From positions 3,472,001 to 3,536,000 of the forward strand of contig NZ_CP041692.1 in the NCBI RefSeq assembly GCF_007362775.1: 64,000 nucleotides of DNA, given 5' to 3'. Below the pieces are notes generated by a model. The model was not told the DNA's origin and made no database searches. It saw nothing but the letters and a program-made list of their open reading frames with translations. Origin of the DNA: Microlunatus elymi. GTDB lineage: Bacteria > Actinomycetota > Actinomycetes > Propionibacteriales > Propionibacteriaceae. The position numbers and the translations under genes are program-made. How positions within the stretch are numbered: position 1 is the first letter of the stretch; each line of letters begins with the position of its first letter. Positions 5,833 through 64,000 of this stretch are shown here, one piece after another.

Positions 5833-6755
5833 CGGCGCACCTTCCTCCGCCGCACCGGTCGAAGCGCCGGATTGCCGATCTCGTCGAAGGCGTAGTTCAG
5901 CAGCGCAAAGGATGCGCCGAGCAGACCGATCGCCAGACCGGGCGCGATCACCCACCACTGCTGTCCGGTCTGCAACGCCTCGTTGGTCTGCGCCCAGTGC
6001 AGCATCGTTCCCCAGCTGTTCGCCGACGAGTTGCCCAGTCCGATGAACTGCAGTCCTGCCTCAGTCAGCAGTGCGTACAGCGCGATGCCGAGGAAGTTCG
6101 CCGCGATCAGCGACACCATCGTCGGCAGGATCTCGAACACGATCACGTACGAGGCCCGCTCACCCCGAACCCGCGCCGACTCCAGGAAATCCCTATTCCG
6201 CAAAGACATCGCCTGCGCCCGCAACTGCCGGGCCCCGTACGACCACCCGGTGATCACCAGGACTCCGATCAGCACCGGCATCTTGCCTCCGCCGGCGTAG
6301 GCGGCGATCACGATGATCAACGGCAGGGCCGGGATGACCAGGAAGACGTCGGTGAGCAAGGACAGCAGGTCCTCGCCCAGACCGCCCAGATAGGCCGCGG
6401 AGACGCCGATGATGATCGACACCACACTGGCCAGCACTCCGACCATCACGCAGACGAACAGGGACTGCCGGGTGCCGTAGACCAGTTGGGTCCAGATGTC
6501 CTGGCCGAAGGCGTTGGTGCCGAGCAGATGTCCCGATCCGGGCGGCAGCATCTGGGCGAACTGCTGGTTGGGATTGTGGATGGTGGTGAACAGTTGCGGC
6601 ACGATGGCGGCGATCACGAAGATCGCCAGCATGATCGCCCCGGCCAGCGCCTTCTTGTTGCCCACGACGGCACGCAGAACGCCGGCGCCGGGACGGATCC
6701 GGGTGGCCGGGGCCTCGACCGCGGTCTCGGCAGCGGTTGCGGTGACAGCACTCAT
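5829..6755 (-). CDS. ABC transporter permease (OppC-like)
   Basis: A protein of 308 aa. I chose the ATG at 6755 because GGAG sits five bases before it; a GTG directly upstream at 6758 is also possible. An N-terminal cytoplasmic segment leads to a first membrane span (ALAGAIMLAIFVIAAIVPQL). A loop with the OppC hallmark GTNAFGQDIWTQLVYGTRQS follows, then five further spans. The EAA-like coupling motif is around SLRNRDFLESARVRGE. It forms the heterodimeric channel with the upstream OppB-like permease. Confidence 0.94.
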   Translation of the reverse strand: MSAVTATAAETAVEAPATRIRPGAGVLRAVVGNKKALAGAIMLAIFVIAAIVPQLFTTIHNPNQQFAQMLPPGSGHLLGTNAFGQDIWTQLVYGTRQSLFVCVMVGVLASVVSIIIGVSAAYLGGLGEDLLSLLTDVFLVIPALPLIIVIAAYAGGGKMPVLIGVLVITGWSYGARQLRAQAMSLRNRDFLESARVRGERASYVIVFEILPTMVSLIAANFLGIALYALLTEAGLQFIGLGNSSANSWGTMLHWAQTNEALQTGQQWWVIAPGLAIGLLGASFALLNYAFDEIGNPALRPVRRRKVRR

Positions 6756-46650: not shown

Positions 46651-47586
46651 ATGACCACAGATCCTCACCACGAAGCGCGTCCGAGCATGCCCGGCAAGCG
46701 CGTGCTCGTTGCCGGAGCGACCGGCTATCTCGGCCGGCACCTCGTACAGGCGCTGATCGATGCGGGTTGTCGCGTACGGGTTCTGGTGCGGCGACCGGAG
46801 CAGGCTGCCGGCTTCCCCGCCGGGGTTGACGCCTTCGTCGGGCAGGTGACGGATCCGGCAACTCTGGCCGGCGTCACCGATGGCGTCGAGCTGGTGTTCT
46901 CGGCGCTCGGCATCACCCGCCAGCGAGACGGCGTCGGTTACCTGGATGTCGACTACCGCGGCAACCTGGCCCTGCTGCGGCTGGCAGAGAGCGCAGGCGT
47001 CGCGCGGTTCATGTACGTGTCCGTGCTGCACGGGCGCGAACTTCGTCGAACCGTGCGGCTGGCCGCGGCGAAGGAGAAGTTCGTCGACGCGTTGACCGCC
47101 TCCCCCGTCTCCTCGGTGGTGGTGCGCCCGACGGGCTACTTCTCCGACATGGACGAGTTCCTGGCCATGGCCGGCCGCGGCGTCGTGTCACTGATCGGTG
47201 ACGGACAGCTGAGGATCAACCCGATCTCCGGTCGCGATGTGGCCGACGCTTGCCTCGAGGCCGCGAGGTCGGACGCGACGGACGTGCCGGTCGGCGGTCC
47301 CGACGTACTGAGCTATCAGGACATCGCCCGTGCCGCCTTCGCCGCGCACCGGACCGAACCACGGATCCGTCACCTCCCCCGCGTCCTGGTCGTCGCCGCG
47401 GTATGGGTGCTCTCACGGTGTACTCCCGAGCGCGTCCACGGACCGCTGCAGTTCCTGACCGCGGTGATGACCAACGACATGACCGCACCGCCGACCGGAT
47501 CGGATCACCTTGCCGACTACTTCGCCCGACAATCCGTCGGCGTCGGTGCGCCGACGACCGCGCCCGATGCTCCCGGTGCCGGATAG
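46651..47586 (+). CDS. NmrA-like NAD(P)-binding (atypical SDR) protein
   Basis: A protein of 311 aa from the ATG at 46651. The glycine motif is VLVAGATGYLGRHLVQALID. Further features are LVFSALGITRQRDG, a VRPTGYFSDM segment near the active-site region and INPISGRDVADACLEAA. The YxxxK motif is degenerate, as in NmrA/complex I NDUFA9-like members, which act as redox sensors or reductases. The C-terminus has a hydrophobic helix (LVVAAVWVLS). First gene of the UbiX/UbiD run. Confidence 0.86.
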   Translation: MTTDPHHEARPSMPGKRVLVAGATGYLGRHLVQALIDAGCRVRVLVRRPEQAAGFPAGVDAFVGQVTDPATLAGVTDGVELVFSALGITRQRDGVGYLDVDYRGNLALLRLAESAGVARFMYVSVLHGRELRRTVRLAAAKEKFVDALTASPVSSVVVRPTGYFSDMDEFLAMAGRGVVSLIGDGQLRINPISGRDVADACLEAARSDATDVPVGGPDVLSYQDIARAAFAAHRTEPRIRHLPRVLVVAAVWVLSRCTPERVHGPLQFLTAVMTNDMTAPPTGSDHLADYFARQSVGVGAPTTAPDAPGAG

Positions 47587-47600
47587 GTGCGGAGTCATCG

Positions 47601-48242
47601 ATGCGCATCGACGGCCATCCAGCCCCGCCTAGGCTGGTGGTAGGGATCAGCGGAGCCACCGGCATCGGCTACGGGATCGCGGTGCTGGAGCTGGCCCATA
47701 AGGCAGGGTGGGAGACCCATCTTGTGGTGAGTGCGGCGGGCCAGCAGACACGGGCGTACGAGACGGACCTGTCGGCGGCCGAGCTGGCCGCCATGGCCGA
47801 CGTCGTCTATCGGCCAGCCGACGTGGGAGCAGCGATCGCATCCGGATCGTTCCGCACCGACGGGATGATCGTCGCACCCTGTTCGATCCGAACGCTTTCG
47901 GCCATCGCATATGCGCTCAGCGACAACCTGCTGACCCGGGCGGCCGACGTCACGCTGAAGGAGCGACGGCCCCTGGTGCTGATGGTGCGCGAGGCGCCGT
48001 TGACTCTCGGCCATCTGCGGGCGATGACTGCGGTCACCGAGGCGGGCGCGATCGTCATGCCACCTGTGCCCGCTTGGTACCTGCGCCCGACAAACGTCCC
48101 GGACATTCTCGAACACTCGGCCGCACGAGCCCTCGACCTGCTCGGTGTGGAAGTCCCCGATCTGCCCCGTTGGGGCGAAGACCTTGCAGAGGAGAAGCAT
48201 GAGACATATCCGCGATCTACGCGAGTTCGTCGCCGAGCTTGA
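47601..48242 (+). CDS. UbiX-family flavin prenyltransferase
   Basis: A protein of 213 aa from the ATG at 47601, GGAG six bases upstream. It should prenylate FMN to make the cofactor of UbiD enzymes. Signatures are LVVGISGATGIGYGIAVLEL (flavin loop), APCSIRTLSAIAYALSDNLL, RAADVTLKERRPLVLMVREA and IVMPPVPAWYLRP. The 3' end overlaps the UbiD gene by 44 bp, so the pair is coupled. Confidence 0.93.
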   Translation: MRIDGHPAPPRLVVGISGATGIGYGIAVLELAHKAGWETHLVVSAAGQQTRAYETDLSAAELAAMADVVYRPADVGAAIASGSFRTDGMIVAPCSIRTLSAIAYALSDNLLTRAADVTLKERRPLVLMVREAPLTLGHLRAMTAVTEAGAIVMPPVPAWYLRPTNVPDILEHSAARALDLLGVEVPDLPRWGEDLAEEKHETYPRSTRVRRRA

Positions 48243-49686
48243 CAAGATCGGCGAGATTCAGCACATCGAAAGAGAGGTGGACTGGAATCTTGAACTGGGT
48301 GCGGTGGCCCGGCGGTCCTATGAACTGCGCGCACCGGCGCCGTTGTTCGAGAACATCAGCGGGATCGGCGACGGCTTCCGGGTGCTGGCCGCGCCGGGCG
48401 GGTTGTCGTCGCAAGCCGGACTCGCCTACGCTCGGATCGCGATCGCGCTCGGCCTGCCGCCGGACGCAAGCGGCGCCGACATCGTCACCGCGCTTGCCGA
48501 TGCCCGGCGACGCGACCCGATCCCACCCAGGCTGCTCGACACCGGGCCGTGCAAACAGAACGTGATGCGCGGCGACGACATCGATCTGTTGCGGTTCCCG
48601 ACACCACTCATCCACGACGGTGACGGCGGACGCTACCTGCAGACGTACGGACTCAACATCGCCAAGACCCCGGACGGTTCCTGGACGAACTGGTCGATCA
48701 ACCGGATGATGCTGCTGGACCGGAACCGGCTCGCCTGCCTGATTCCGCCGCCGCAGCATCTGGGGATCATCAAGGCACAGTGGGAAAAGCGCGGCGAGCC
48801 GATGCCGATCGCGGTGGCGTTGGGCGTGGAGCCCGGACTGCCGTACGTCGGTGGGATGCCGCTGCCCGAGGGTGCGGACGAGTCTCACTACCTCGGCGCC
48901 TACTTTGGCGAGCCGCTCGATGTCGTCGCTGCCGAGACCGTGGATCTGCTCGTGCCGGCAACCGCGGAGATCGTCATCGAGGGATATGTGTCGCACACCG
49001 ACGTCGCGGACGAGGGCCCGATGGGCGAGTATCCCGGCTACCTCGATCGCAGCGCTGCGTTGCCGCGTCCCGTACTGCAGGTGACCGCGGTGACCTACCG
49101 TGACCAGGCGATCCTTCCGGTGGCCGTAGCCGGAGCGCCGGTCGAGGAGGACCATACGGGCTGGGGTATGCCGCACGCTGCAGAAATGGTCCACATCCTG
49201 CGTCGGGCCGAGCTGCCGGTCGCTGCCTGTTGGGGAGTGCTCGAGTCTGCGAACCACTGGTGGGTCGTTGCCGTGCGGCCGGACTGGCACGAACAGACGG
49301 GGCTGTCCTCGAAGCAGCTTGCCGAACAGATCGGTCGTACCGTGTTCGGCGCCGGCAAACTCGCGTTCGGGATACCCAAGCTGCTGCTGGTCGAGAACGA
49401 CATCGACATCGCGGACCCGAGGCAGGTGATCTGGGCCTTCGCCAGCCGTGCCCATCCCGAGCACGGGGAGATCCACTTCGCCAATGAATCGCAGAACATC
49501 CTGCCGATCTACCTCGACGCCCACGAACGGCTCAGCTACCACGCCACAAAAGTTGTTCACAACTGCCTGATCGCCGACCGGTTCGAGCCAGACGAACGCC
49601 CGACTCCCTCGGACCTGGCGCATGCCTGGCCCGCCGACATCCGTCGACACGTGATCGACAACTGGCACGCCTACGGATATCGCTGA
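48199..49686 (+). CDS. UbiD-family (de)carboxylase
   Basis: A protein of 495 aa from the ATG at 48199 with GAGGAG-like RBS inside ubiX. It uses prenylated FMN to decarboxylate (or carboxylate) aromatic or unsaturated acids. Signatures are WNLELGAVARRSYEL, INRMMLLDRNRL (Arg), the acidic motif EGPMGEYPGYLDR and NESQNILPIY at the C-terminus. The class covers UbiD, phenolic-acid, vanillate and anhydromevalonate-phosphate decarboxylases, and the substrate is open. There is no VdcD/BsdD-type small subunit next to it. Confidence 0.93.
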   Translation: MRHIRDLREFVAELDKIGEIQHIEREVDWNLELGAVARRSYELRAPAPLFENISGIGDGFRVLAAPGGLSSQAGLAYARIAIALGLPPDASGADIVTALADARRRDPIPPRLLDTGPCKQNVMRGDDIDLLRFPTPLIHDGDGGRYLQTYGLNIAKTPDGSWTNWSINRMMLLDRNRLACLIPPPQHLGIIKAQWEKRGEPMPIAVALGVEPGLPYVGGMPLPEGADESHYLGAYFGEPLDVVAAETVDLLVPATAEIVIEGYVSHTDVADEGPMGEYPGYLDRSAALPRPVLQVTAVTYRDQAILPVAVAGAPVEEDHTGWGMPHAAEMVHILRRAELPVAACWGVLESANHWWVVAVRPDWHEQTGLSSKQLAEQIGRTVFGAGKLAFGIPKLLLVENDIDIADPRQVIWAFASRAHPEHGEIHFANESQNILPIYLDAHERLSYHATKVVHNCLIADRFEPDERPTPSDLAHAWPADIRRHVIDNWHAYGYR

Positions 49687-53826: not shown

Positions 53827-53838
53827 ATTGTCAACAAA
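53827..53838. promoter_or_regulatory. Candidate GntR box upstream of the MFS gene (weak)
   Basis: ATTGTCAACAAA followed by CCTACGA. It matches 10 of 12 positions of ATTGTCGACAAT and shares the CCTACGA tail with the box at the GntR gene. It is 190 bp upstream of the transporter start. Confidence 0.5.
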
Positions 53839-54028
53839 CCTACGATCTCTTCGGGCAGAGTACTTCCTGCCCAGCCGTTGACCGACGGGACTCTCGGCTC
53901 CGGGCCCTCTGGCCCGCCGGTCCTGTGACCTTGTACGCCCATCGAGAAGGCCAATTCAATACGACGTCGAGCCGTCCTGTCGCCGCCATTGCGACGGCGG
54001 GCTCGCGCCCGATGAGGAGGAAGACCAG

Positions 54029-55384
54029 ATGAGCACGACCAGTACGACGAGCGCGAAGGAGCCGTCACCGAGCGTCCTTCGCCGGGCCATTGCGGCCTCC
54101 GCGATCGGAAACGCCACCGAATGGTTCGACTACGGCGTCTACGGTGCAGCAACGATCTACATCACCAACCACATCACCGGCGGCAGCATCATCGTTACGC
54201 TGCTCGGATTCGCGGTCTCCTTCGTGCTCCGGCCGCTCGGCGGATTCATCTGGGGTCCGCTCGGTGACCGGATCGGCCGCCGCGCCGTGCTGTCGATGAC
54301 GATCATCCTGATGTCCGGCGCGACGTTCCTGCTGGCCTTCATTCCCACCTACGCGACTATCGGCGTCGCCGCGCCGATCATCCTGGTCGCCCTGCGCGTC
54401 ATCCAAGGGTTCTCGACCGGTGGTGAGTACGGAGGCGCGGCCACCTTCATGGCCGAGTACGCGCCGGACAAGAAGCGCGGCTTCTACGGCAGCTTCCTCG
54501 AATTCGGCACCCTGTCCGGCCTGGCCGGCGGCGCGTTGCTGATGTTGCTGCTGCAGGTCGCCACACCTGACTCGTTCATGAACAGCTGGGGCTGGCGGAT
54601 CCCGTTCATGGTCGCAGCGCCGCTCGGTCTGGTCGGCCTGTATCTGCGGACCCGGCTGGAGGACACCCCGGTCTTTCGTGAGTTGGAGGAGAAGGGCGAG
54701 AAGGAGGAGAAGGCCAGCGCTGCGCTGGGCGAGGTGATCCGCAACCACTGGCGGACGATCCTGGTCCTGATGGGTCTGGTGGTCGCCCTCAACGTGGTCA
54801 ACTACACCCTGCTGTCGTACATGCCGACCTATCTGCAGGACACCATCCACCTGAGTGCCAACAAGGCGTTGCTGTTGCCGATCATCGGCGAAGTGGTGAT
54901 GATGATCTTCATCCCGTTCGCGGGCAGGCTGTCCGATCACATCGGTCGCAAGCCGGTGTGGCTGATCTCGATGGTCGGCCTGTTCGTCCTCGCCATCCCG
55001 GCCTACATGTTGATGGGAGCGAACTTCGGCCTGGCGATCCTCGCCTTCGTCGTGCTCGGCCTGCTCTACATCCTGCAGTTGGGCACCATCTCGGCGACCT
55101 TCCCGGCGATGTTCCCGGCGACCGTGCGTTATGCGGGCTTCGCGATCGGCTACAACGTCTCCACGGCCCTGTTCGGAGGTACGTCGTCGCTGGTCAACGA
55201 GTGGATGATCGGCGTGACCGGGAGCAACATCTTCCCGGCGTACTACATGATGGGCGCTTGCGCGATCGGCATCATCGCCTGGTTCTTCATGAAGGAGACC
55301 GCCGGTGCGTCGATCCGTGGCACCAAGGTGCCCGAGGCGGCACGGACCGCGACCGGCAAGTTCATCCGGCCGAGCGCGGTGTGA
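54029..55384 (+). CDS. MFS transporter, metabolite:H+ symporter (MHS/ProP) family
   Basis: A protein of 451 aa, ATG at 54029 after GAGGAGGAAG. Twelve membrane segments. MHS marks are AIGNATEWFDYGVYGAATIY in helix 1, the loop motif GPLGDRIGRRAVL, RVIQGFSTGGEYGGAATFMA and a cytoplasmic charged loop (RELEEKGEKEEKAS). Relatives move betaines, dicarboxylates, shikimate and related solutes by proton symport. The adjoining gabT/gabD pair and a shared regulator box suggest an amino-acid-like substrate. Confidence 0.93.
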   Translation: MSTTSTTSAKEPSPSVLRRAIAASAIGNATEWFDYGVYGAATIYITNHITGGSIIVTLLGFAVSFVLRPLGGFIWGPLGDRIGRRAVLSMTIILMSGATFLLAFIPTYATIGVAAPIILVALRVIQGFSTGGEYGGAATFMAEYAPDKKRGFYGSFLEFGTLSGLAGGALLMLLLQVATPDSFMNSWGWRIPFMVAAPLGLVGLYLRTRLEDTPVFRELEEKGEKEEKASAALGEVIRNHWRTILVLMGLVVALNVVNYTLLSYMPTYLQDTIHLSANKALLLPIIGEVVMMIFIPFAGRLSDHIGRKPVWLISMVGLFVLAIPAYMLMGANFGLAILAFVVLGLLYILQLGTISATFPAMFPATVRYAGFAIGYNVSTALFGGTSSLVNEWMIGVTGSNIFPAYYMMGACAIGIIAWFFMKETAGASIRGTKVPEAARTATGKFIRPSAV

Positions 55385-55416
55385 TCAACGTGAGTTGACC
55401 TTCGTCAGCGAATGAT

Positions 55417-55454
55417 CATCGGGCCCCCGTCGACAGTTCGACGGGGGCCCGATG
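55417..55454. terminator. Bidirectional hairpin terminator, MFS gene / gabT
   Basis: A perfect 17-bp inverted repeat (CATCGGGCCCCCGTCGA and its complement) with a CAGT loop lies in the convergent gap between the MFS and gabT stops. No long U-run follows on either side, as is common in GC-rich actinobacteria. Confidence 0.85.
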
Positions 55455-55483
55455 TGCTGCTACCCGTGATCATCATCGGATGA

Positions 55484-56743
55484 TCACCGAGCGAGTACGG
55501 CGTGCACCGCGTCGGACCAGATCCCGGCGGCTTCGTCGATCTCCTCGGCGTTCACCACCAGGGCAGGGATGAAGCGGACCACCTGACTCCACGCACCACA
55601 GGTCAACAACAACAGTCCGCGCCGGGCGGCCTCCTGCTGCACGGCGGCGGCTGTGGTGGTGTCCGGATTTCCTTCCGAGTCGCGGAATTCGGCCCCGATC
55701 ATCAGGCCCAGACCTCGTACATCGGTGAGCTGATCATGATCATCGGCGATCTTGATCAACGCTGTCTTCAGTTGATCACCACGATCGGCGGCGTTCTGCA
55801 CCAGCTTCTCGTCCTCGATCACGTCCAGCGTCGCCAGTGCCGCCGCACAGGCGACCGCATTGGCGCCGTAGGTGCCGCCCTGGCTGCCCGGCCAGGCCTT
55901 GGCCATCAGCTCGTCGGAGGCGGCGATGGCCGACAGCGGGAAGCCGGATGCCAACCCCTTCGCGGTCACCAGCACATCCGGTCGGACGTCGAAATGATCT
56001 TCGCCCCAGAATCTCCCGGTCCGGCCGAAGCCGGTCTGCACCTCGTCGATCACCAGCTGGATGCCGTACCGGTCGGCCCGCTCCCGCAGTCCGGCGAAGA
56101 ATCGGGCGTTACCGGGCACGTAGCCACCCTCCCCCAGCACCGGCTCGACGAAGAACGCCGCGGTCTCCTCCGGCTGGGTCAGCGTCTGCAGCACATAGTC
56201 CAACTGCTTGAGGGCGAAGTCGGTGGATTCCTCAATGCTCCAACCGAAGTAGGTCGGATCCGGGAACGGTGCGACGTGCACACCCGACATCAACGGGGAG
56301 AAGCCGCCCTTGAACTTCGTACCCGAGGTCGTCATCGATGCGGCGGCGACGGTCCGGCCGTGAAACCCGCCGTGGAAGACGATCACGTTCGGCCGCCGCG
56401 TGGCCTGTCGAGCGAGCCGTAGCGCCGCCTCGATCGCCTCCGAACCCGAGTTGGCGAAGAACATCCGATTCAGCCCGGTCGGCAGCACCTCCCCCAGCCG
56501 GTCGACCAGGCTCAGCAGCGGTCGATGCATCACCGTCGTGTACTGCGCGTGGATCAGGGTGGCGACCTGCCGCTGAGCCGCCTCGACCACCCGCGGATGG
56601 CAGTGGCCGGTACTGGTCACCCCGATGCCGGCGGTGAAGTCCAGGTAGCGGCGGTCCTGTTCGTCGTAGAGACAGACGCCCTCGCCACGTGCGGCCAGCA
56701 CGCCGGTCGCCTGCTTCAGGATCTGTGAGAGTTCAGCCATCAT
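55484..56743 (-). CDS. gabT: 4-aminobutyrate aminotransferase-like class III aminotransferase
   Basis: A protein of 419 aa from the ATG at 56743 (a second ATG follows directly). It should transfer the terminal amine of GABA or a similar omega-amino acid to 2-oxoglutarate. Class III marks are FANSGSEAIEAALRLARQAT, HGGFHGRT, VIDEVQTGFGRTG and TAKGLASGFPL with the PLP Lys; GGTYGANAVACAAALA matches GabT enzymes. Divergent from gabD, with a palindromic operator between. Confidence 0.9.
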   Translation of the reverse strand: MMAELSQILKQATGVLAARGEGVCLYDEQDRRYLDFTAGIGVTSTGHCHPRVVEAAQRQVATLIHAQYTTVMHRPLLSLVDRLGEVLPTGLNRMFFANSGSEAIEAALRLARQATRRPNVIVFHGGFHGRTVAAASMTTSGTKFKGGFSPLMSGVHVAPFPDPTYFGWSIEESTDFALKQLDYVLQTLTQPEETAAFFVEPVLGEGGYVPGNARFFAGLRERADRYGIQLVIDEVQTGFGRTGRFWGEDHFDVRPDVLVTAKGLASGFPLSAIAASDELMAKAWPGSQGGTYGANAVACAAALATLDVIEDEKLVQNAADRGDQLKTALIKIADDHDQLTDVRGLGLMIGAEFRDSEGNPDTTTAAAVQQEAARRGLLLLTCGAWSQVVRFIPALVVNAEEIDEAAGIWSDAVHAVLAR

Positions 56744-56762
56744 TACCGTCCGATCATTGTCT

Positions 56763-56776
56763 GATTGTCGACAATC
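56763..56776. promoter_or_regulatory. GntR-type operator between gabT and gabD
   Basis: GATTGTCGACAATC is a perfect 14-bp palindrome in the 59-bp divergent spacer. It shares ATTGTCGAC-N-ATCCT with the site at the GntR/FCD gene 4.5 kb away. Confidence 0.75.
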
Positions 56777-56802
56777 CTGGTTTCGGTCCTATGCTGCCAT
56801 AC

Positions 56803-58266
56803 ATGAACGCCGCAGCAGAAGCAGCCGTGATCAACGCCGTACCCAAGCAACTCTTCATCGGTGGTTCGTGGAGTGATGCCACCGACGGCGCCACCCTCGA
56901 CGTGCGGGATCCGGCCACCGGGCAGACGCTCTGTTCGGTTGCCGACGCCTCACCGGCGGACGGAATGGCAGCGCTGGATGCCGCCGTGAAGACCCAACCG
57001 GAAATGGCAGCGCTGTCGCCGCGGGAACGAGCCGACATCCTGACCACGGCCTTCGAGTTGCTGCATGAACGCATTGATGATCTTGCGCTGTTGATGACGC
57101 TGGAGATGGGCAAGCCGGTCGCCGAGGCCAAGGGAGAGATCACTTATGCGGCCGAGTTCTTCCGGCATTTCGCCTCCGAGGCCGTACGGATCGACGGCGG
57201 CTATCAGACCGCGCCGGCCGGCGGCTCCAGGTTCTTGATCACCAAGCAACCGGTCGGGCCGTCGATCTTGATCACGCCGTGGAATTTCCCGATGGCGATG
57301 GGCACCCGCAAGCTCGGGCCGGCGATCGCGGCGGGCTGCACCAGCGTGATCAAACCGGCCGAGCAGACACCGCTGTCGATGCTGGCATTGGCTGCAATCC
57401 TTGCTGAGGCAGGGCTTCCGGCTGGTGCTGTCAACGTGATCACCTGCACCGACGCCGGTGCCGTGATGGAGCCGATGATCAAGTCCGGGTTGGCCCGCAA
57501 GCTGTCCTTCACCGGATCCACCAAGATCGGCAAGCTGTTGCTCGAGCAGTGCGCGGACAAGGTGTTGCGGACCTCGATGGAGCTCGGCGGCAACGCGCCC
57601 TTCATCGTCTTCGACGACGCTGATCTTGACGAGGCGGTCAGCGGGGCGATGGCGGCCAAGATGCGCAATATGGGTGAGGCCTGTACGGCGGCGAACCGGA
57701 TCTACGTGCACGCCGACGTGATCGACGAGTTCGCAGCGTTGCTCGCGGAGCGGATGGGCGGGCTGCGGGTCGGACGCGGCACCGAGGACGGCGTCGACGT
57801 CGGTCCGCTGATCGACCAGGCAACGCTGGACAAGGTGACGCGGCTGGTCGCCGACGCGGTCGATCGGGGGGCGCGGGTGGTCACCGGCGGTTCGGCGCCG
57901 GACGGCGACGGCTACTTCTACACTCCGACGGTGCTGACCGGCGTGGCCAGGGACGCGGCGATGAACTCGGAGGAGATCTTCGGTCCGGTGGCGCCGCTGA
58001 CCCCGTTCACCGAGGAGGACGAGGTGGTCGGGCTGGCCAACGCCACTCGCTGGGGGCTGGTCGGTTACGTCTACACCAACGACCTGCGCCGGGCGATCCG
58101 GGTCAGCGAGGCGCTGGAGTTCGGCATGGTCGGGCTGAATCAGGGCGTGGTGTCCAACCCGTACGCGCCGTTCGGCGGGGTGAAGGAGTCCGGCCTGGGC
58201 CGCGAGGGCGGCTCGATCGGCATCGACGAATTCCTGGAGACGAAGTACATCGGCATCACCGTGTGA
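56803..58266 (+). CDS. gabD: Succinate-semialdehyde dehydrogenase-like aldehyde dehydrogenase
   Basis: A protein of 487 aa from the ATG at 56803 (ATG at 56791 also in frame; neither has an RBS). Oxidises the semialdehyde made by GabT to the acid with NAD(P)+. Marks are FIGGSWSDATDGATLDVRDP, the cofactor/active-site stretch SILITPWNFPMAMGTRK, FTGSTKIGKLL, MELGGNAPFIVFDDAD (Glu) and GEACTAANR with the catalytic Cys. It overlaps the DUF2461 gene by 11 bp at the 3' end. Confidence 0.92.
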   Translation: MNAAAEAAVINAVPKQLFIGGSWSDATDGATLDVRDPATGQTLCSVADASPADGMAALDAAVKTQPEMAALSPRERADILTTAFELLHERIDDLALLMTLEMGKPVAEAKGEITYAAEFFRHFASEAVRIDGGYQTAPAGGSRFLITKQPVGPSILITPWNFPMAMGTRKLGPAIAAGCTSVIKPAEQTPLSMLALAAILAEAGLPAGAVNVITCTDAGAVMEPMIKSGLARKLSFTGSTKIGKLLLEQCADKVLRTSMELGGNAPFIVFDDADLDEAVSGAMAAKMRNMGEACTAANRIYVHADVIDEFAALLAERMGGLRVGRGTEDGVDVGPLIDQATLDKVTRLVADAVDRGARVVTGGSAPDGDGYFYTPTVLTGVARDAAMNSEEIFGPVAPLTPFTEEDEVVGLANATRWGLVGYVYTNDLRRAIRVSEALEFGMVGLNQGVVSNPYAPFGGVKESGLGREGGSIGIDEFLETKYIGITV

Positions 58267-58912
58267 GGTGCACCGTGGTGCCGCTGACCTGACCGGACAC
58301 CCACTCCACCAGCGGCCTGACCTGGCGCCAGTCCCTCTTGATCTTGGTCGCCAGCTCGGCGGAGTGGATGATCGGCTCGAAGCCGTACGACTTGTGCACG
58401 GTCAGCGATCGGTGCCGCAACAGCTCGATCCTCGGGTGATCAAGATCAAAACCGCGCGGAGCGGTCTTCAACCGGTCTCCCCCGGTCTCCCAATGTGACC
58501 TGCTGAGCTTGGCCAGCAAGCGCTCCAGCTCCGGACCGCGCACGTCGTCGGCAACTGCGCGGCGAAAGCGGGCCAGCGCGTCCGGGCCGGCGTGATAAAA
58601 GCCGCCCGCCACCATCACGCCACGGGCGCTCAATTCGACATACCAACCCGTCGCCTCCGCGGTGGCGACAAACGCTCCCTGATGGGTCTTGTAGGGCGTC
58701 TTGTCCTTGGCGAAACGGACGTCGCGGTAGGGCCGGAAGATCTTCGCCGGCCCGAACTCTCGTTCCAGCCCGGCCAGCAGCGCCTCCATCGGCCCGCGTA
58801 CGTGGTCTTGGTAGACCTGCTTGTGCGCGTCCCAGAACGCCTTGGAGTTGTCGACCTCGAGGTCGTCGTAGAAGTCCAGGGCCTCGGTGGTGAATCCGGC
58901 GAAGTTCGACAC
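58256..58912 (-). CDS. DUF2461 (TIGR02453) family protein
   Basis: A protein of 218 aa from a GTG at 58912 with AGGA upstream. The family motifs FYDDLEVDNSKAFWDAHKQV, RPYRDVRFAKDKTPYKTHQG and GFYHAGPDALARFRRAV are clear. Function unknown. Convergent with gabD and overlapping it by 11 bp. Confidence 0.9.
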   Translation of the reverse strand: MSNFAGFTTEALDFYDDLEVDNSKAFWDAHKQVYQDHVRGPMEALLAGLEREFGPAKIFRPYRDVRFAKDKTPYKTHQGAFVATAEATGWYVELSARGVMVAGGFYHAGPDALARFRRAVADDVRGPELERLLAKLSRSHWETGGDRLKTAPRGFDLDHPRIELLRHRSLTVHKSYGFEPIIHSAELATKIKRDWRQVRPLVEWVSGQVSGTTVHLTR

Positions 58913-59061
58913 GGGCGATCCTAATCGCCGGGGCGCCGGCTGCGAACGAGAGCCCCGACGTCGTGTTGGCTCGAAATACGCGGATTTCCCGGGGCCACCC
59001 CGCAGCGAAGCTGCCCCGACTGTTGTCGCGAGTGCGGGTTGCTCGGCGGGCATCGGCCGGG

Positions 59062-59970
59062 TCAGCGGATCGGTTCCGAGGCGCCGGCGGTGGCGAAGTC
59101 TGCTGCCCGTTTGATCACGTCGGCGTCCCGGAGGATGCGTTGGTGGCCCAGTCCGTCGGTGCTCACGAATTCGGCGTTCGGCCAGGCGACGGCAAGGTCT
59201 ACGGCATCGGCGTACGGCGCCTCCTTGTCCCGCTGATCGTGGATGATCATCGTCGGCACGCGATCGGCGAGATCGGGCATCGTCCGCAGATCGAACTCGG
59301 CCAGCGGGCCGCCGACCAGCTGCTCGATCCGAGCGTTCAGCCGGGCCGTTGTGCGCGGGCCGAAGCCGAAGATCGTGCCGACCAGCTCCAGATAGCCGGA
59401 CTGCTGGACGTTCGGGGCGATCATCAGCAACCGGCCGACGTCGAGACCGTCTCGGATGGCGACCGCGGCAGTGGCGCAGCCGAAGGAGTGGGCGATCACG
59501 GCTTCCGGTCTGCCGTGCACGGCCGCCACCGCCGTCAACGCCTGAGCGAATTCGAGCCCGTTGCCGCGCCCCTTGCCCATCAGCCCGGGGTCGGAGTCGC
59601 CGTGGCTGGGAGCATCGAACGCGACCACCCGGTGGCCAGCTTCCAGCAGCGGTCCGACGAAGGCGCCGAGTTGCCCGCGCCAGCCACCCCAGCCGTGCAT
59701 CAGGTAGATCGGGCTGCCGGTGCCCCAGGTCTCCACGGCAATCGCGCGACCGTTCATGATCACGGCAGAGCGCTGTCCCGGTTTGGGTCGCTCATCGCGG
59801 CGGCGGCCGGCGTTGCCCGGCAACGTGCACCACAGGTCGAGCGCCCACCGCGACAGCGGACCCGGCGCTACCCGATCCCCGAGCAGGAAGATCCTCCTGG
59901 TGACCGCCAACCGCGCGGCTTGAATTCGTACGGTCGTGCTTTTCTTTGATCGGTTGTCTCTCGTGCTCAC
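59062..59970 (-). CDS. Alpha/beta-fold hydrolase
   Basis: A protein of 302 aa from a GTG at 59970 (GAGGA seven bases upstream). Core motifs are YLMHGWGGWRGQ (oxyanion loop), AHSFGCA (nucleophile Ser), IIHDQRDKEAPY (Asp) and DGLGHQRIL (His). About 70 extra residues, basic at the start, precede the fold. It is encoded 12 bp after a TetR gene and is probably its regulated partner. Confidence 0.88.
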   Translation of the reverse strand: MSTRDNRSKKSTTVRIQAARLAVTRRIFLLGDRVAPGPLSRWALDLWCTLPGNAGRRRDERPKPGQRSAVIMNGRAIAVETWGTGSPIYLMHGWGGWRGQLGAFVGPLLEAGHRVVAFDAPSHGDSDPGLMGKGRGNGLEFAQALTAVAAVHGRPEAVIAHSFGCATAAVAIRDGLDVGRLLMIAPNVQQSGYLELVGTIFGFGPRTTARLNARIEQLVGGPLAEFDLRTMPDLADRVPTMIIHDQRDKEAPYADAVDLAVAWPNAEFVSTDGLGHQRILRDADVIKRAADFATAGASEPIR

Positions 59971-59982
59971 GGCAGAGTCCTC

Positions 59983-60570
59983 TCAGCTGCGTACGGCGTC
60001 CAGCAGCGCCTCGAAGGCGCGCCGGGATCGAGCTTCGGTTTCGGTGGCCCCGTAGACGGGCAGCCAGTGGTAGCCGGCGAACATCACGCCGTCCAGCGCG
60101 AAGGCGAACTGCATCGGATCCGCGTCGTCGCGGAAGTGCCCCTCGGTGATGCCGGTCCGGAAGATCTGGGCGATGCTGTCGTAGAGATCGCGATGATCTT
60201 GGATCAGTTGATCATGAACGGGACCGCTCTGCTCCTCGAATTCCGTGATGGCCTTGACGAACAGGCAGCATCCGGGAGCACGTCGAAGTCCTCGATCGGC
60301 CCAGCGGGCGAAGAGTTCGCGGACGCGCGGTTCGCCGCGCGGTGCGGCGACCGCGGGCCGGATGACCGAGTCGGTGAACTCTTCTCGAGCGCGTCCCAGG
60401 ACCTCCAACTGCAGCGACTGGATGGATCCGAAGTGTGCGTAGAGTCCGCTCTTGCTGAGGCCGGTGCTGCGGGCGAGCTCGCCGATGGTCAGCCGGCCGA
60501 GGCCGACTCGGTACGCCGTCTCCACACCGTGATGCAGGATCGCACTCTTGGTCTCGGCACCCTTGGACAC
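59983..60570 (-). CDS. TetR-family transcriptional regulator
   Basis: A protein of 195 aa from the GTG at 60570 (VSKGAETKSAIL); no RBS is visible, so a leaderless start is possible. The HTH is at about 15-55 (LTIGELARSTGLSKSGLYAH). The C-terminal half fits the TetR_C_33-like type with GCCLFVKAITEFEEQSGPV. Same strand as the hydrolase gene that follows. Confidence 0.9.
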   Translation of the reverse strand: MSKGAETKSAILHHGVETAYRVGLGRLTIGELARSTGLSKSGLYAHFGSIQSLQLEVLGRAREEFTDSVIRPAVAAPRGEPRVRELFARWADRGLRRAPGCCLFVKAITEFEEQSGPVHDQLIQDHRDLYDSIAQIFRTGITEGHFRDDADPMQFAFALDGVMFAGYHWLPVYGATETEARSRRAFEALLDAVRS

Positions 60571-60610
60571 CGAGACAAAATAGCACGACCGTACTGGTCG
60601 CGGCCAGGGG

Positions 60611-61267
60611 TTACTCCTCCACGACCAGCCGGGCGAGCGCGTCATCCATGTGTTCGAGCATCAGTCGGTCGGCCTGTTGCGGGTCGGCCGCACGGATCGC
60701 ATCGGCGATCGCCTGGTGCTCGGCAACCCGGTCGTCGGACAGCGCGTAGCTCTCGGCCAGCGCGTTGATGCACATCCGGGTCTCGGTGATCAGGGTCCGG
60801 TGCAGCCGCTTCAGCCGCGGACTCCGAGACAGATCGACGAGTTCTTCGTGAAACGCGATGTCGGCCTCGGAACGCCCCGCCACACTGGTCGCGGTGGCCA
60901 TCCGAGTGCAGATGTCGGACAGGCTCGCGCCGGCTCCGGCCGGGTCGCGCTTGATGATCAGGCCGATCGCCGCGCGCTCGATCGCACTGCGGACCGCGTA
61001 CATGTCGCGGACGTTGTCGGGGGTCATCTCGATCACGAACACGCCGCGATTGCGGATCGAGACCAGCAAACCTTCCTGGGTGAGCCGCTGCAGACCCTCA
61101 CGGAGCGGCCCACGGCTGACCCCGAGCGTGCGGGCCAGCTCCGCCTCGTAGAGTTGTGCGCCGGCGGCGATGTCGCCGTGCCCGATCGCGTCGCGGACCT
61201 TGTCGGCGATGATGCTCGGCGTCGACTCACGGACGAGCGGTTCGAGGTAGCGGCTGGTGTTGTTCAT
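60611..61267 (-). CDS. GntR-family (FCD subclass) transcriptional regulator
   Basis: A protein of 218 aa from the ATG at 61267. The winged HTH spans about residues 15-80 (IADKVRDAIGHGDIAAGAQL, LARTLGVSRGPLREGLQRLT). The all-helical FCD effector domain follows, with metal-binding residues in FHEELVDLSRSPRLKRLHRT and AEHQAIADAIRAAD (His). FCD regulators sense carboxylic acids. The palindrome over its start codon indicates autoregulation; the same box is found between gabT and gabD. Confidence 0.92.
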   Translation of the reverse strand: MNNTSRYLEPLVRESTPSIIADKVRDAIGHGDIAAGAQLYEAELARTLGVSRGPLREGLQRLTQEGLLVSIRNRGVFVIEMTPDNVRDMYAVRSAIERAAIGLIIKRDPAGAGASLSDICTRMATATSVAGRSEADIAFHEELVDLSRSPRLKRLHRTLITETRMCINALAESYALSDDRVAEHQAIADAIRAADPQQADRLMLEHMDDALARLVVEE

Positions 61268-61277
61268 TGTCGACGAT
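61266..61277. promoter_or_regulatory. GntR operator at the GntR gene start
   Basis: ATTGTCGACGAT, 11 of 12 identical with the gabT/gabD palindrome and followed by the same CCT. It overlaps the start codon of the GntR gene and fills the 11-bp gap to the racemase-like gene. Confidence 0.7.
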
Positions 61278-61278
61278 C

Positions 61279-62028
61279 CTACGACCTCGGGGTGGGTCCG
61301 GTGGGGAGGTCCTCCGAGCCGGCGAACAACCGCCCGAGGCCGGATGCGGATCGTGGCGCGTCGAGCAGCCGCAGGCCTTCCCAGACGGTGACCTGGTTGG
61401 CTGTCAGCACCGGTTTGCCGACGGCGGCTTCCAGGTCGTCGACGAGGGCGAGGGTGTGCATGGCCGTATCGGGCACAAGGATCGCGTCGGCCTCGTCGAG
61501 ATCCGCGGCGCGGGTCAACTCGATCACCTGATCGGGCGTGAGGTGGCCGACGTCGGACGCGTGGAGGATGTCGGAGACGCCGAAGCCGGCCACCGAGATC
61601 CCTGCCTGACCGAGGAAATCGACGAACAGCCGGGCCACGTCATCGGGGTACGAGGCCGCGACGGCGACACGGCGCAGGTCAAGATCGTCGGCGGCACGGG
61701 CGAAGGCGAGCGAGGTCGACGACACCGGTAGCCCGCGGCGCCGGGACAACTCCTCGGCCTGCCGCTGGGCACCCGCCCAGCCGAACACGAAACTGCCGCT
61801 GGTGCAGGCCCAGATGATCGCGTCCGGCCGGTCCGGGCTCAGCGCCGCGGCGCCGAGCTCCAGCGCATCGGCGCTCCCCCAGGCCCGCAACTCCTCGGGC
61901 CGGTGAGCGTCGCTGTCCATTGCGGTGTGCACCAACGGCAACCGCAGGTCGGGGTGGAAACGCTGCTCGGCAACGGCGAAGTCGTCCTCGGCGCTGTGAC
62001 CGGGGTAGAGCAGCCCGATGGTGATCAT
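61279..62028 (-). CDS. Asp/Glu racemase-superfamily protein (maleate isomerase/AMDase-like)
   Basis: A protein of 249 aa from the ATG at 62028, which overlaps the M20 gene stop (ATGA). It opens MITIGLLYPGHSAEDDFAVA. The first catalytic Cys is in IIWACTSGSFVFGWAG. At the second position, where racemases and maleate isomerases have Cys, it reads AILVPDTAMHTLALVDDLE with Asp-Thr instead. One-Cys members include arylmalonate-decarboxylase-like enzymes. A decarboxylase or isomerase of a dicarboxylate is possible. Confidence 0.85.
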   Translation of the reverse strand: MITIGLLYPGHSAEDDFAVAEQRFHPDLRLPLVHTAMDSDAHRPEELRAWGSADALELGAAALSPDRPDAIIWACTSGSFVFGWAGAQRQAEELSRRRGLPVSSTSLAFARAADDLDLRRVAVAASYPDDVARLFVDFLGQAGISVAGFGVSDILHASDVGHLTPDQVIELTRAADLDEADAILVPDTAMHTLALVDDLEAAVGKPVLTANQVTVWEGLRLLDAPRSASGLGRLFAGSEDLPTGPTPRS

Positions 62029-63269
62029 GAAATGCCCAACGTACGTTGGATGATCAGCGCGTAGCCGCGCGCCGCGGTCAACAGGTCCCGGATCGGCACC
62101 GACTCGTCGGCCTGATGCGCCTGTTCGGTCACCGACCCGGGCCCGAACACCACCACGTCCAATCCGGCGTCGCGGGCCAGGAAGCCGCCGTCGCAGGCAG
62201 CCGACCAACCGCCGGGCGGCAGCTCGGGCGCTCCGGCAGCGATGCAGGAATCATGAACCACGGTTGCGATCGTGCTGTCGTTCGCCGTCTCGAACCCGGG
62301 CATGTCCAAGATCAACTCCGTCTCGATCCGCAGATCGTCGGGCAGGTCCAGGCGGCCGATTCGGCGGCGAAGTTGATCAAGAACCATCGGCCCGGTCTCC
62401 GTCGGCAGCAGCCGCCGATCGGCGATCAGCCGGCACTCTGCCGGCACGATCGACGGCCCGGTGCCGCCACTGATCGTCCCCACACTGACCGTGGCCGGAC
62501 CGGTCAGCGGATGACCGCTGCCGGCCAACTCTGCATGCCAGCAACGAAGATCGTCGATGATTTCGGCCGCACCGTAGATCGCGTTGGTTCCTTCGTCAGG
62601 AGAGCCGGCGTGGGCGGCCCGACCGGTGATCTTGATCTCCAGGTACGCGTCGCCACGGGCAGCGATCACGGTCTGCAGCCCGGTCGGCTCGCCGACCACG
62701 CAGCCGGCGAAGCCTCGGCCATGGCCGCTCGTGAGGTAGTGGCGCACCCCCAGCGCGGCATCCTCCTCGTCGATGGTGACCGCCAGCTCCACGGGTCCTC
62801 GTAGCGGCACCCCGGCCCGGCGCATCGCACCCAGCGCGACCAGCATCGCGGCCAAGCCGCCTTTCATGTCGGCCGAGCCGCGCCCGTACAGGCGTCCGTC
62901 GCGAACGAGGCCACGATGAGGATGCATCGACCAGCCGTCACCGGCCGGAACCACATCGGAATGCCCCAGGAACAGCAATCCTGGACCGTCACCGCCGGCG
63001 AGCCGGGCCCGCAGGTTGGGCCGGCCCGGCCGGACCGGGTCGATCTCGTGATCGAGTCCCCGCTGGTCGCAGGCCCGGGCCAGCACCTCGACGGTTGCCT
63101 GTTCCTGGCCGGGCGGATTCTCCCCCGGAGCCACCACCAGAGCGGCCGCCAGCGACGTGATCTCCTCGGTGCCGATCAAGTCCAGTACTGCGGCCTCCGC
63201 CGCCGTTGCGGCACTCGGCGGCGCGAGGCCCAACGGGCTCACCTCAGGCCCGAGGTGCCGCTCAGGCAT
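62025..63269 (-). CDS. M20-family metallopeptidase/deacylase
   Basis: A protein of 414 aa from the ATG at 63269. Dinuclear zinc ligands are in LFLGHSDVVPAGDGW (His), YGRGSADMKGGLAAM (Asp), IDEEDAALG (Glu-Glu), CVVGEPTGLQTV (Glu) and a late His (EQAHQADESVP). The dimerisation lid lies between GRAAHAGSPDEG and ISGGTGPSIVPAEC. It resembles ArgE/DapE deacylases and could release an amino acid from an N-acyl or carbamoyl conjugate. Overlaps both neighbours by 4 and 8 bp. Confidence 0.9.
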   Translation of the reverse strand: MPERHLGPEVSPLGLAPPSAATAAEAAVLDLIGTEEITSLAAALVVAPGENPPGQEQATVEVLARACDQRGLDHEIDPVRPGRPNLRARLAGGDGPGLLFLGHSDVVPAGDGWSMHPHRGLVRDGRLYGRGSADMKGGLAAMLVALGAMRRAGVPLRGPVELAVTIDEEDAALGVRHYLTSGHGRGFAGCVVGEPTGLQTVIAARGDAYLEIKITGRAAHAGSPDEGTNAIYGAAEIIDDLRCWHAELAGSGHPLTGPATVSVGTISGGTGPSIVPAECRLIADRRLLPTETGPMVLDQLRRRIGRLDLPDDLRIETELILDMPGFETANDSTIATVVHDSCIAAGAPELPPGGWSAACDGGFLARDAGLDVVVFGPGSVTEQAHQADESVPIRDLLTAARGYALIIQRTLGIS

Positions 63270-64000
63270 CGAGCGCTCGACGCAGCCTGGCCACGCCCTC
63301 GACGATCCGGTCCGGCGGCGTCGAGGCGAAACACAACCGCAGCGCATCCGGGTAGCGGCCGGTCGGCGAGAACGCAGGACCGGGGATGTACGCGACGCCC
63401 TCGGCCAACGCAGCGGCGAACAGCCGCTGGGTGTCGACCCCGGGAATCGTTACCCACAAGAAGAATCCGCCGTCGGGATCGGTCCAGGTCGCCCGCGACC
63501 CGAATTGGTCGGCCAATGCCGTCTGCATGGCCGTCCTGCGTTCGCGATAACGTTCCCGCTGCGTGCGCAGATGTTGATCAAGACCACCTTCGGCCAGGAA
63601 GGCGGCCACCAGCCGCTGTCCCGGCAGATTGGTGCAGGTGTCCATCGCCTGTTTGGCGTTGATGATCAACTGCTGATGCTGCGGAGCGGTGTCCACCCAA
63701 CCCACCCGCAGCCCGGGAGCGATGATCTTGGAGAAGGTGCGCACCGCGAACACCAGCGGATCACCGTCGGACAGGGATCGCAGCGAACCGATGTCGTCAC
63801 CGCCGAACCGGAGCAGACCGTACGGATCGTCGTCGATGATCATCGAACCCCAACGGCGGGCCAACTCGATCAACCGCTGCCGGCGTTCCAGGCTCAGTGT
63901 GGTGCCGGAAGGATTCTGAAAGCTGGGGATGACGTAGATCGCCTTCGGCGCTCGACCGGCCCGGTCGACGACCTCGATCAACTCGTCGATGATCATGCCG
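63262..64000 (-). CDS. PLP-dependent class I/II aminotransferase (5' end beyond window)
   Basis: The last 246 residues of an aminotransferase of the 2-aminoadipate/LysN or MocR-like type. Visible are AIYVIPSFQNPSGTTLSLER, MIIDDDPYGLLRF (PLP Asp), VRTFSKIIAPGLRVGW with the Schiff-base Lys, and GFFLWVTIPG. Whether an N-terminal GntR HTH (MocR type) exists cannot be seen. It is the most upstream visible gene of the operon running M20, racemase-like. Confidence 0.88.
   Translation of the reverse strand, partial: GMIIDELIEVVDRAGRAPKAIYVIPSFQNPSGTTLSLERRQRLIELARRWGSMIIDDDPYGLLRFGGDDIGSLRSLSDGDPLVFAVRTFSKIIAPGLRVGWVDTAPQHQQLIINAKQAMDTCTNLPGQRLVAAFLAEGGLDQHLRTQRERYRERRTAMQTALADQFGSRATWTDPDGGFFLWVTIPGVDTQRLFAAALAEGVAYIPGPAFSPTGRYPDALRLCFASTPPDRIVEGVARLRRALDA

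Follow-up and report, generated by a model that had tools for sequence, protein, structure and literature searches.

What does a regulator of the GntR family control when near-identical palindromes of 12 nt lie on its own start codon, between an aminotransferase and an aldehyde dehydrogenase gene, and upstream of a transporter gene? This question is raised by a stretch of the Microlunatus elymi genome (contig NZ_CP041692.1, positions 3,472,001 to 3,536,000), whose 64,000 nucleotides were analysed as a whole and are referred to here as the window. An earlier prediction made from its letters had placed an MFS transporter, a transaminase, an aldehyde dehydrogenase and a racemase-like/M20/aminotransferase operon under one GntR regulator with an FCD domain and three binding sites, and had left the pathway open. 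Comparative genomics supports the single regulon, but its sites number at least four rather than three, and the gene set looks like an ectoine-type catabolic one rather than one for gamma-aminobutyrate (GABA). Judging by the sequence comparisons described below, the locus most likely carries a switch that is conserved in many actinobacteria and turns on genes to take up and consume ectoine. Ectoine protects cells against salt, and ectoines are nitrogen-rich compatible solutes.

The three boxes are present where the original prediction had put them, and a fourth lies beyond the window, where coordinates continue in window numbering:

53827-53838: box 1, ATTGTCAACAAA, upstream of the MFS gene; 10 of 12 positions match the perfect palindrome
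56764-56775: box 2, ATTGTCGACAAT, between gabT and gabD; a perfect palindrome (12 of 12)
61266-61277: box 3, ATTGTCGACGAT, covering the first two bases of the GntR start codon; 11 of 12 positions match
66380-66391, 2.4 kb past the window end: fourth box, ATTGTTGACAAT, between an EutA-like gene and an operon for a D-2-hydroxyacid dehydrogenase (HADH), an amidase and a DUF3830 protein

The 12-mer does not occur at random through the genome. With at most one mismatch to ATTGTCGACAAT, only three sites (56764, 61266 and 66380) are found in 5,121,194 bases, all of them within 9.6 kb at this locus; by simple arithmetic, the probability that three random sites in 5.12 Mb share a span of 16 kb is about 1e-5. 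When two mismatches are allowed the whole genome holds 79 sites, box 1 among them. Box 1, at two mismatches, does not stand out by such a count, and the case for it depends on conservation: it lies in 22 bp, GATTGTCAACAAACCTACGATC, that are unchanged to the letter before the MFS orthologue of a relative (genome G107), in DNA that has otherwise diverged, and an exact box precedes the MFS gene of Microlunatus speluncae (locus L095). Box 2, which sits inside the 14-mer GATTGTCGACAATC (56763-56776), is kept in G107, G125 and others, and the context of box 3, GTCGTAGGATnGTCGACAATGAACAA, is kept in G107 and G125. The window taken alone gives weaker support (23 matches at up to three mismatches vs 11.9 expected, with 0 of 100 shuffles reaching 23) and would not have settled the question of chance. 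Chance is ruled out by the whole-genome count together with the permuted palindromes and the box positions described below.

With the fourth site past the window end, the regulon comprises at least four sites and about twelve genes. The cluster is made up as follows:

54029..55384, plus strand: MFS transporter, MHS/ProP-like, putative importer (Pfam MFS_1 134.7 bits; best NCBIfam model ProP, 393 bits, cut-off 544)
55484..56743, minus strand: class III aminotransferase 'GabT', proposed diaminobutyrate transaminase (Pfam Aminotran_3 395 bits)
56803..58266, plus strand: aldehyde dehydrogenase 'GabD', proposed aspartate-semialdehyde dehydrogenase (Pfam Aldedh 514.7 bits)
60611..61267, minus strand: GntR-family regulator with FCD domain (Pfam GntR 56.2 bits, cut-off 27; FCD 77.5, cut-off 24.3)
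61279..62028, minus strand: EutA1, Asp/Glu racemase / arylmalonate decarboxylase fold, EutA-like (Pfam Amdase 91 bits)
62025..63269, minus strand: M20-family deacylase, start codon uncertain, proposed acetyl-diaminobutyrate deacetylase (Pfam Peptidase_M20 120.5 bits; ArgE/DapE family model 214.0 bits, cut-off 217.6)
63262..64000, minus strand, cut by the window end, gene to 64434: AT1, class I/II aminotransferase (Pfam Aminotran_1_2 85 bits, scored on the portion inside the window)
64439-65623, past the window end, minus strand: M24 enzyme
65620-66354, minus strand: EutA2, second EutA-like protein, start uncertain
66420-67427, plus strand: HADH
67424-68836, plus strand: amidase
68839-69369, plus strand: DUF3830 protein
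beyond the DUF3830 gene, plus strand: LacI-type gene

What had been described as a side operon is thus the core of the pathway, and it runs past the window to include M24, EutA2, HADH, the amidase and DUF3830. Between gabD and the GntR gene lie DUF2461, alpha/beta-hydrolase and TetR genes, none of which has a box at up to one mismatch. All three are present in G125, G107 has them without DUF2461, and in Nakamurella (L081) gabD adjoins GntR.

Conservation across the phylum was assessed in 80 loci (79 actinobacterial and one from Mesobacillus), the best 80 matches to an alignment of seven M24 proteins, chosen without use of the box; a GntR orthologue was scored at a tblastn value of at least 100 bits and at least 38% identity. 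The exact pattern ATTGTYRACAAT occurs 133 times in 56 of these loci, and 19 other permuted palindromes of the same letters give one match together. A box is found in 44 of 45 loci with a GntR orthologue vs 12 of 35 without one, and for five of those 12 (L083, L089, L093, L118 and L132) the stretch is cut short where the contig ends. The association has a value of 2e-10 by Fisher's test, to be read as descriptive, since the loci are related. Of the 133 boxes, 117 are situated upstream of a cluster gene, 12 within one and 4 elsewhere; all 16 exceptions belong to Kribbella, and with this genus left out every box (96 of 96) is found directly upstream of a cluster gene. The consensus extends to GATTGTYRACAATC, the 14-mer of the original prediction, whose outer G/C is conserved at 78%. 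Boxes occur under 23 of 32 genus labels, and it is over this range that the regulon links a homologue of ectoine hydrolase, joined in some relatives by an ectoine importer, to a defined operator and regulator. In the stretches of the 45 GntR loci, M24 is present in 45, AT1 in 43, M20 in 41, gabD in 40, HADH in 38, gabT in 34, MFS in 26, EutA1 and EutA2 in 22 each, the amidase and DUF3830 in 21 each and EhuB in 5. The M24 gene itself is patchy, with 10 of 394 genomes of the class carrying it at E <=1e-60. The 96 boxes also bear on the flanking letters. CCT does directly follow boxes 1 to 3, and CCTACGA two of them, as had been noted; the fourth box lacks CCT, which is therefore no general part of the box. 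Neither string was retained as part of the operator, as strong conservation among the 96 boxes is limited to the first flanking base (C, 78%). In the GntR case, CCTA complements the -10-like TAGGAT of the gene itself.

Closer to M. elymi, a sample of 147 genomes of the family, M. elymi included, was used, and nine stretches were taken around relatives' best GntR matches. Boxes with at most one mismatch stand at cluster genes in 7 of the 9 stretches, where gene order is rearranged, and they are kept before HADH/gabT, amidase/EutA1, EutA2/HADH, gabT/gabD, GntR or EhuB. The other two stretches are those of G144 and of G077, whose GntR match (37% identity) lacks neighbouring cluster genes. When 14 genomes were scanned for exact ATTGTYRACAAT, the eight cluster genomes yielded 20 sites, of which 17 fall in the cluster and the other 3 outside it in G014; the remaining six genomes yielded 2 (one each in G041 and G059), and the reversed pattern has no sites in the 14 genomes. 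The boxes are thus conserved in relatives, both in the family genomes and in the 56 M24-chosen loci. The three further G014 sites (contig 35, L072; exact boxes at 6246, 16250 and 18283) lie outside the ectoine-type cluster, near amidohydrolase, ABC transporter and MFS transporter genes, and ten proteins scanned near them comprise amidohydrolases, a two-component system, transporters and an aldehyde dehydrogenase.

Which protein reads the boxes? The N-terminal GntR winged helix and the C-terminal FCD domain of the regulator both score above their Pfam cut-offs, which makes it an FCD (FadR-type) protein. Its FCD residues D136, H140, H184 and H206 are invariant in 9 of 9 orthologues, and we take them to be the conserved Asp/His metal site, like that of FCD proteins in which a metal binds a carboxylate ligand. 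The boxes are very probably the operators of this GntR protein (61267-60611). That one or more other FCD-type regulators of the genome bind them instead seems a very poor bet, even though the genome holds 14 matches to the GntR protein among the 20 candidates scored and the 12-mer is used by a regulator of Pseudomonas aeruginosa, PrpR. Further points in favour of this alternative are G059, in which the 12-mer stands beside an amidase and a different FCD-type GntR gene, and the Kribbella genomes with 16 to 33 boxes each. Against this, a box lies on the start of the GntR gene itself and is kept there in three species, boxes accompany the orthologue in the proportions given above, and the M. elymi genome has no further site at up to one mismatch.

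Two of these cases are observations in their own right. In G059 the 12-mer lies between the two genes named (L077 5500-7313), and paralogous regulators may share an operator there. The Kribbella genomes G538-G540 carry 16, 33 and 24 boxes, as compared to 1 to 6 in each of the other nine box genomes scanned, and at six Kribbella loci (L082, L084, L085, L086, L087 and L090) several boxes are only a few kb apart; in this genus the motif is perhaps used by more than one FCD regulator. The genomes of L126 and L149, which have M24 and no GntR match in the locus stretch, contain no boxes.

PrpR (PA0797) is a GntR repressor with an FCD domain whose predicted motif is reported to be the 12-mer ATTGTCGACAAT, with binding upstream of prpR in an electrophoretic mobility shift assay (PMC9765439). 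The regulator type and the predicted operator are therefore alike in the two systems, the 12-mers being identical (PMC9765439). The regulon differs: PrpR controls the 2-methylcitrate cycle, and no such genes are among the cluster proteins scanned here. Operator and regulator are thus of a known kind while the regulon is not prp. FCD repressors of unrelated pathways use one and the same 12-mer, so a regulon cannot be named from the motif alone. PDB entry 7xp0 is presumably the PrpR protein.

From the boxes, their places and their conservation, all of which are computed, we infer GntR binding, repression and an inducer. Without substrate, a GntR dimer would sit on GATTGTYRACAATC over a -35 element or a transcription start and block RNA polymerase; a pathway intermediate would then bind the FCD domain and free the operators. 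By analogy with EnuR, the MocR-type regulator of ectoine catabolism discussed below, the inducer could perhaps be N-alpha-acetyl-diaminobutyrate or diaminobutyrate. The fourth box, ATTGTTGACAAT, includes the -35 hexamer TTGACA and is followed after 16 bases by TAGGGT, with the HADH GTG start 6 bases further on, and box 3 overlaps the GntR start codon just after TAGGAT. With a -35 hexamer in one box and another box on the GntR start, polymerase occlusion together with autoregulation is the simplest model. In the 80 loci minus Kribbella, TAnnnT follows 15-16 bases after the box in 12 of 39 HADH and 4 of 5 EhuB cases, and 5 more HADH cases have it at 12. A single -10 spacing for all promoters was rejected, as gabT, EutA2 and M24 show no common offset at the listing threshold (Kribbella again left out).

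The substrate is suggested chiefly by the M24 enzyme. Its best solved relatives are ectoine hydrolase DoeA entries, at 318 bits over the full length, and the next family scores 67 bits. It is identical to DoeA at 160 of 378 aligned residues (42.3%), and of the 124 columns invariant in seven M24 sequences, 93 carry the same residue in DoeA. M24 E249 aligns with DoeA E255, a kept glutamate that is presumably the catalytic one. Motifs common with DoeA recur across the 80 loci: E...YHxPx(A/S)RT in 75, PHLTW in 69 and YPPDWGER in 67. A second line of evidence is uptake. In L053, EhuB, EhuC, EhuD and EhuA each score above the curated ectoine cut-offs, as does EhuB of 7 of 7 further clusters, making 8 of 8 scored (L154 left out), and a box lies at most 500 bp upstream of EhuB in 8 of 10 rows, or 7 of 9 distinct regions when L073 and L111 are taken as one Enemella region. 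The solved chain 2q88, which we take to be Sinorhizobium meliloti EhuB, shares 44% identity with the L053 protein. No ectoine synthase is found in the M. elymi genome, as expected of a scavenger, and 2 of 12 scanned genomes have one.

From the gene content, likewise computed, we infer the substrate and each enzyme step. Ectoine or 5-hydroxyectoine would be imported by the ProP-like MFS protein (by EhuABCD in some relatives), its ring would be opened by the M24 ectoine-hydrolase homologue and the product deacetylated by the M20 enzyme, transaminated by 'GabT' and oxidised by 'GabD' to aspartate. The M20 deacylase, class III transaminase and aldehyde dehydrogenase fit a predicted route from ectoine to aspartate. 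AT1, the two EutA-like proteins, HADH, the amidase and DUF3830 would belong to a side branch, perhaps for hydroxyectoine. It is quite probable that the substrate is ectoine or hydroxyectoine, and the fuller proposal, in which one FCD-GntR repressor acts through the boxes as operators of a cluster that is induced by its substrate and serves to import and degrade ectoine and/or 5-hydroxyectoine, is likely.

A number of observations weigh against this proposal. The best NCBIfam model for M24 is DoeA, and its 397 bits fall below the cut-off of 613, which is reached in 0 of 8 family genomes; a GGDYPAI-like motif, the last of the four short ones in common with DoeA, is present in only 39 of 80 M24 proteins. 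The EutE/DoeB deacetylase (TIGR02994) is found in 0 of 8 genomes, the M20 enzyme standing in the cluster instead, and EutB exceeds its cut-off in 0 of 8, with weaker homologues in all 8 (the best in M. elymi, at 263.7 bits, lies outside the cluster). The amidase, DUF3830 and HADH stand under the same boxes and have no place in the described ectoine route. EhuB over the cut-off occurs in 4 of 8 cluster genomes and in none of the M. elymi, G125, G107 and G056 genomes, where the MFS protein would therefore have to import, and EhuB is in the stretches of only 6 of 80 M24 loci. Neither box nor GntR orthologue is present in 23 of the 80, so the enzyme set is not bound to the FCD-GntR regulator. In G144 the GntR orthologue lies at a contig edge and the exact box is absent. 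G056 (L054) keeps the box, GntR, HADH, gabT, gabD and AT1 and lacks the M24 gene, which may reflect decay or another substrate.

Several of these points would be accommodated if the regulon is right and the substrate is a different one, such as a related cyclic amidine or an N-acylated diamino acid. The DoeA-like enzyme acting on it would then have changed its specificity, and the amidase, hydroxyacid dehydrogenase, two EutA-like enzymes and DUF3830 would be the true core. The M24 score well under the DoeA cut-off, the missing EutE and low-scoring EutB, the extra enzymes under the same boxes and the lack of EhuB in M. elymi all speak for it. The 93 shared columns, Glu255 included, and the EhuB proteins over the curated cut-off in all eight scored clusters of the same type argue otherwise, and we regard this explanation as unlikely.

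The names gabT and gabD point to a further option, namely a regulon for GABA or another omega-amino acid in which M24 and M20 act on N-acylated precursors. The two genes stand back to back on the perfect box, and among solved structures the transaminase is closest to GABA transaminases. The curated models disagree, with 'GabT' at 359.4 bits against a GABA transaminase cut-off of 506.65 and 'GabD' at 572.4 against a cut-off of 646.35 for succinate-semialdehyde dehydrogenase (SSADH), and relatives have the same boxes before M24 and EhuB. A GABA or beta-alanine regulon was not preferred on these grounds and is highly improbable.

How does an ectoine regulon of this type compare with those described? 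In Proteobacteria, ectoine catabolism is under the MocR-type EnuR/EutR and AsnC/DoeX (PMC5924519; PMC5320631). The EnuR/EutR regulon as described shares with the present cluster an ectoine hydrolase homologue, a class III transaminase, an SSADH-like dehydrogenase, an EutA-like protein, EhuABCD (here in relatives) and a single repressor (PMC5924519; PMC5320631; PMC8739950). The regulators differ, EnuR/EutR being of the MocR type with an aminotransferase domain, whereas the regulator here is of the FCD type and no aminotransferase domain was found in it. The gene sets differ as well: here EutE is missing and EutB does not exceed its cut-off, and M20, the amidase, DUF3830 and a D-2-hydroxyacid dehydrogenase are added. 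A 2018 review describes ectoine consumers as restricted to Proteobacteria (PMC5924519). An April 2026 paper in Applied and Environmental Microbiology (AEM) reports putative ectoine catabolic clusters in Actinomycetota, Bacillota and Archaea, starting from EutD homologues, and thus agrees in proposing ectoine catabolism in Actinomycetota (PMC13188858). Its clusters differ in having been found through EutD and EutB, and those of Bacillota carry PucR (PMC13188858). The main text of that paper nowhere contains the strings 'gntr', 'amidase', 'm20' or 'hydroxyacid', and overlap in gene content is possible in Fig. 7 or the supplements (PMC13188858). No link of an FCD-GntR regulator or a ATTGTCGACAAT-type operator to ectoine was found in a literature search that left most subscription journals outside its reach.

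The genes that fit poorly may hint at more. EutA1 and EutA2 score 90.7 and 93 bits, far under the EutA cut-off of 318; EutA1 keeps the first Cys and has Asp in place of the second in 7 of 7, and EutA2 keeps the second Cys in 7 of 7. An ornithine-cyclodeaminase-like gene is divergent from GntR in G107 (L049 10410-11369) and G125 (L048 8735-9673), and these two, the only ones scored, reach 63.6 and 73.6 bits with the EutC model (cut-off 471.65). For DUF3830 one solved relative exists, 3kop, titled only 'uncharacterized protein', and no papers were found in a literature search. One guess is that the misfit genes perhaps signal an extra branch for hydroxyectoine; the existence of a distinct branch of this kind is a tentative idea that we would not favour at present. 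With the same reserve, it is conceivable that Actinobacteria evolved their own ectoine/hydroxyectoine pathway and switch, in which FCD-GntR and GATTGTYRACAATC take the place of EnuR, M20 that of EutE, and the hydroxyectoine branch is independent of EutBC and consists of the amidase, DUF3830, D-2-hydroxyacid dehydrogenase(s), class I transaminase and two EutA-like proteins. If this is true, the DUF3830 family gains a function. The boxes also bound the gene list, in that any gene under one is expected to be part of the pathway; DUF3830 and the EutA-like pair are thereby placed in a biochemical context.

A few minor observations accompany the cluster. A FAD/Fe-S protein of about 1,000 residues (L104 4618-7695) is present in 42 of the 56 box loci, often between gabT and gabD, and is absent from the stretches fetched from M. 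elymi's family; it scores highest with the model for the D-2-hydroxyglutarate dehydrogenase YdiJ (455 bits against a cut-off of 1350). The M20 gene of G107 is apparently split in two pieces (L049 14575-15743). Elsewhere in the window, at 47250-49686, two adjacent plus-strand reading frames resemble, by eye, a UbiX/UbiD decarboxylase pair.

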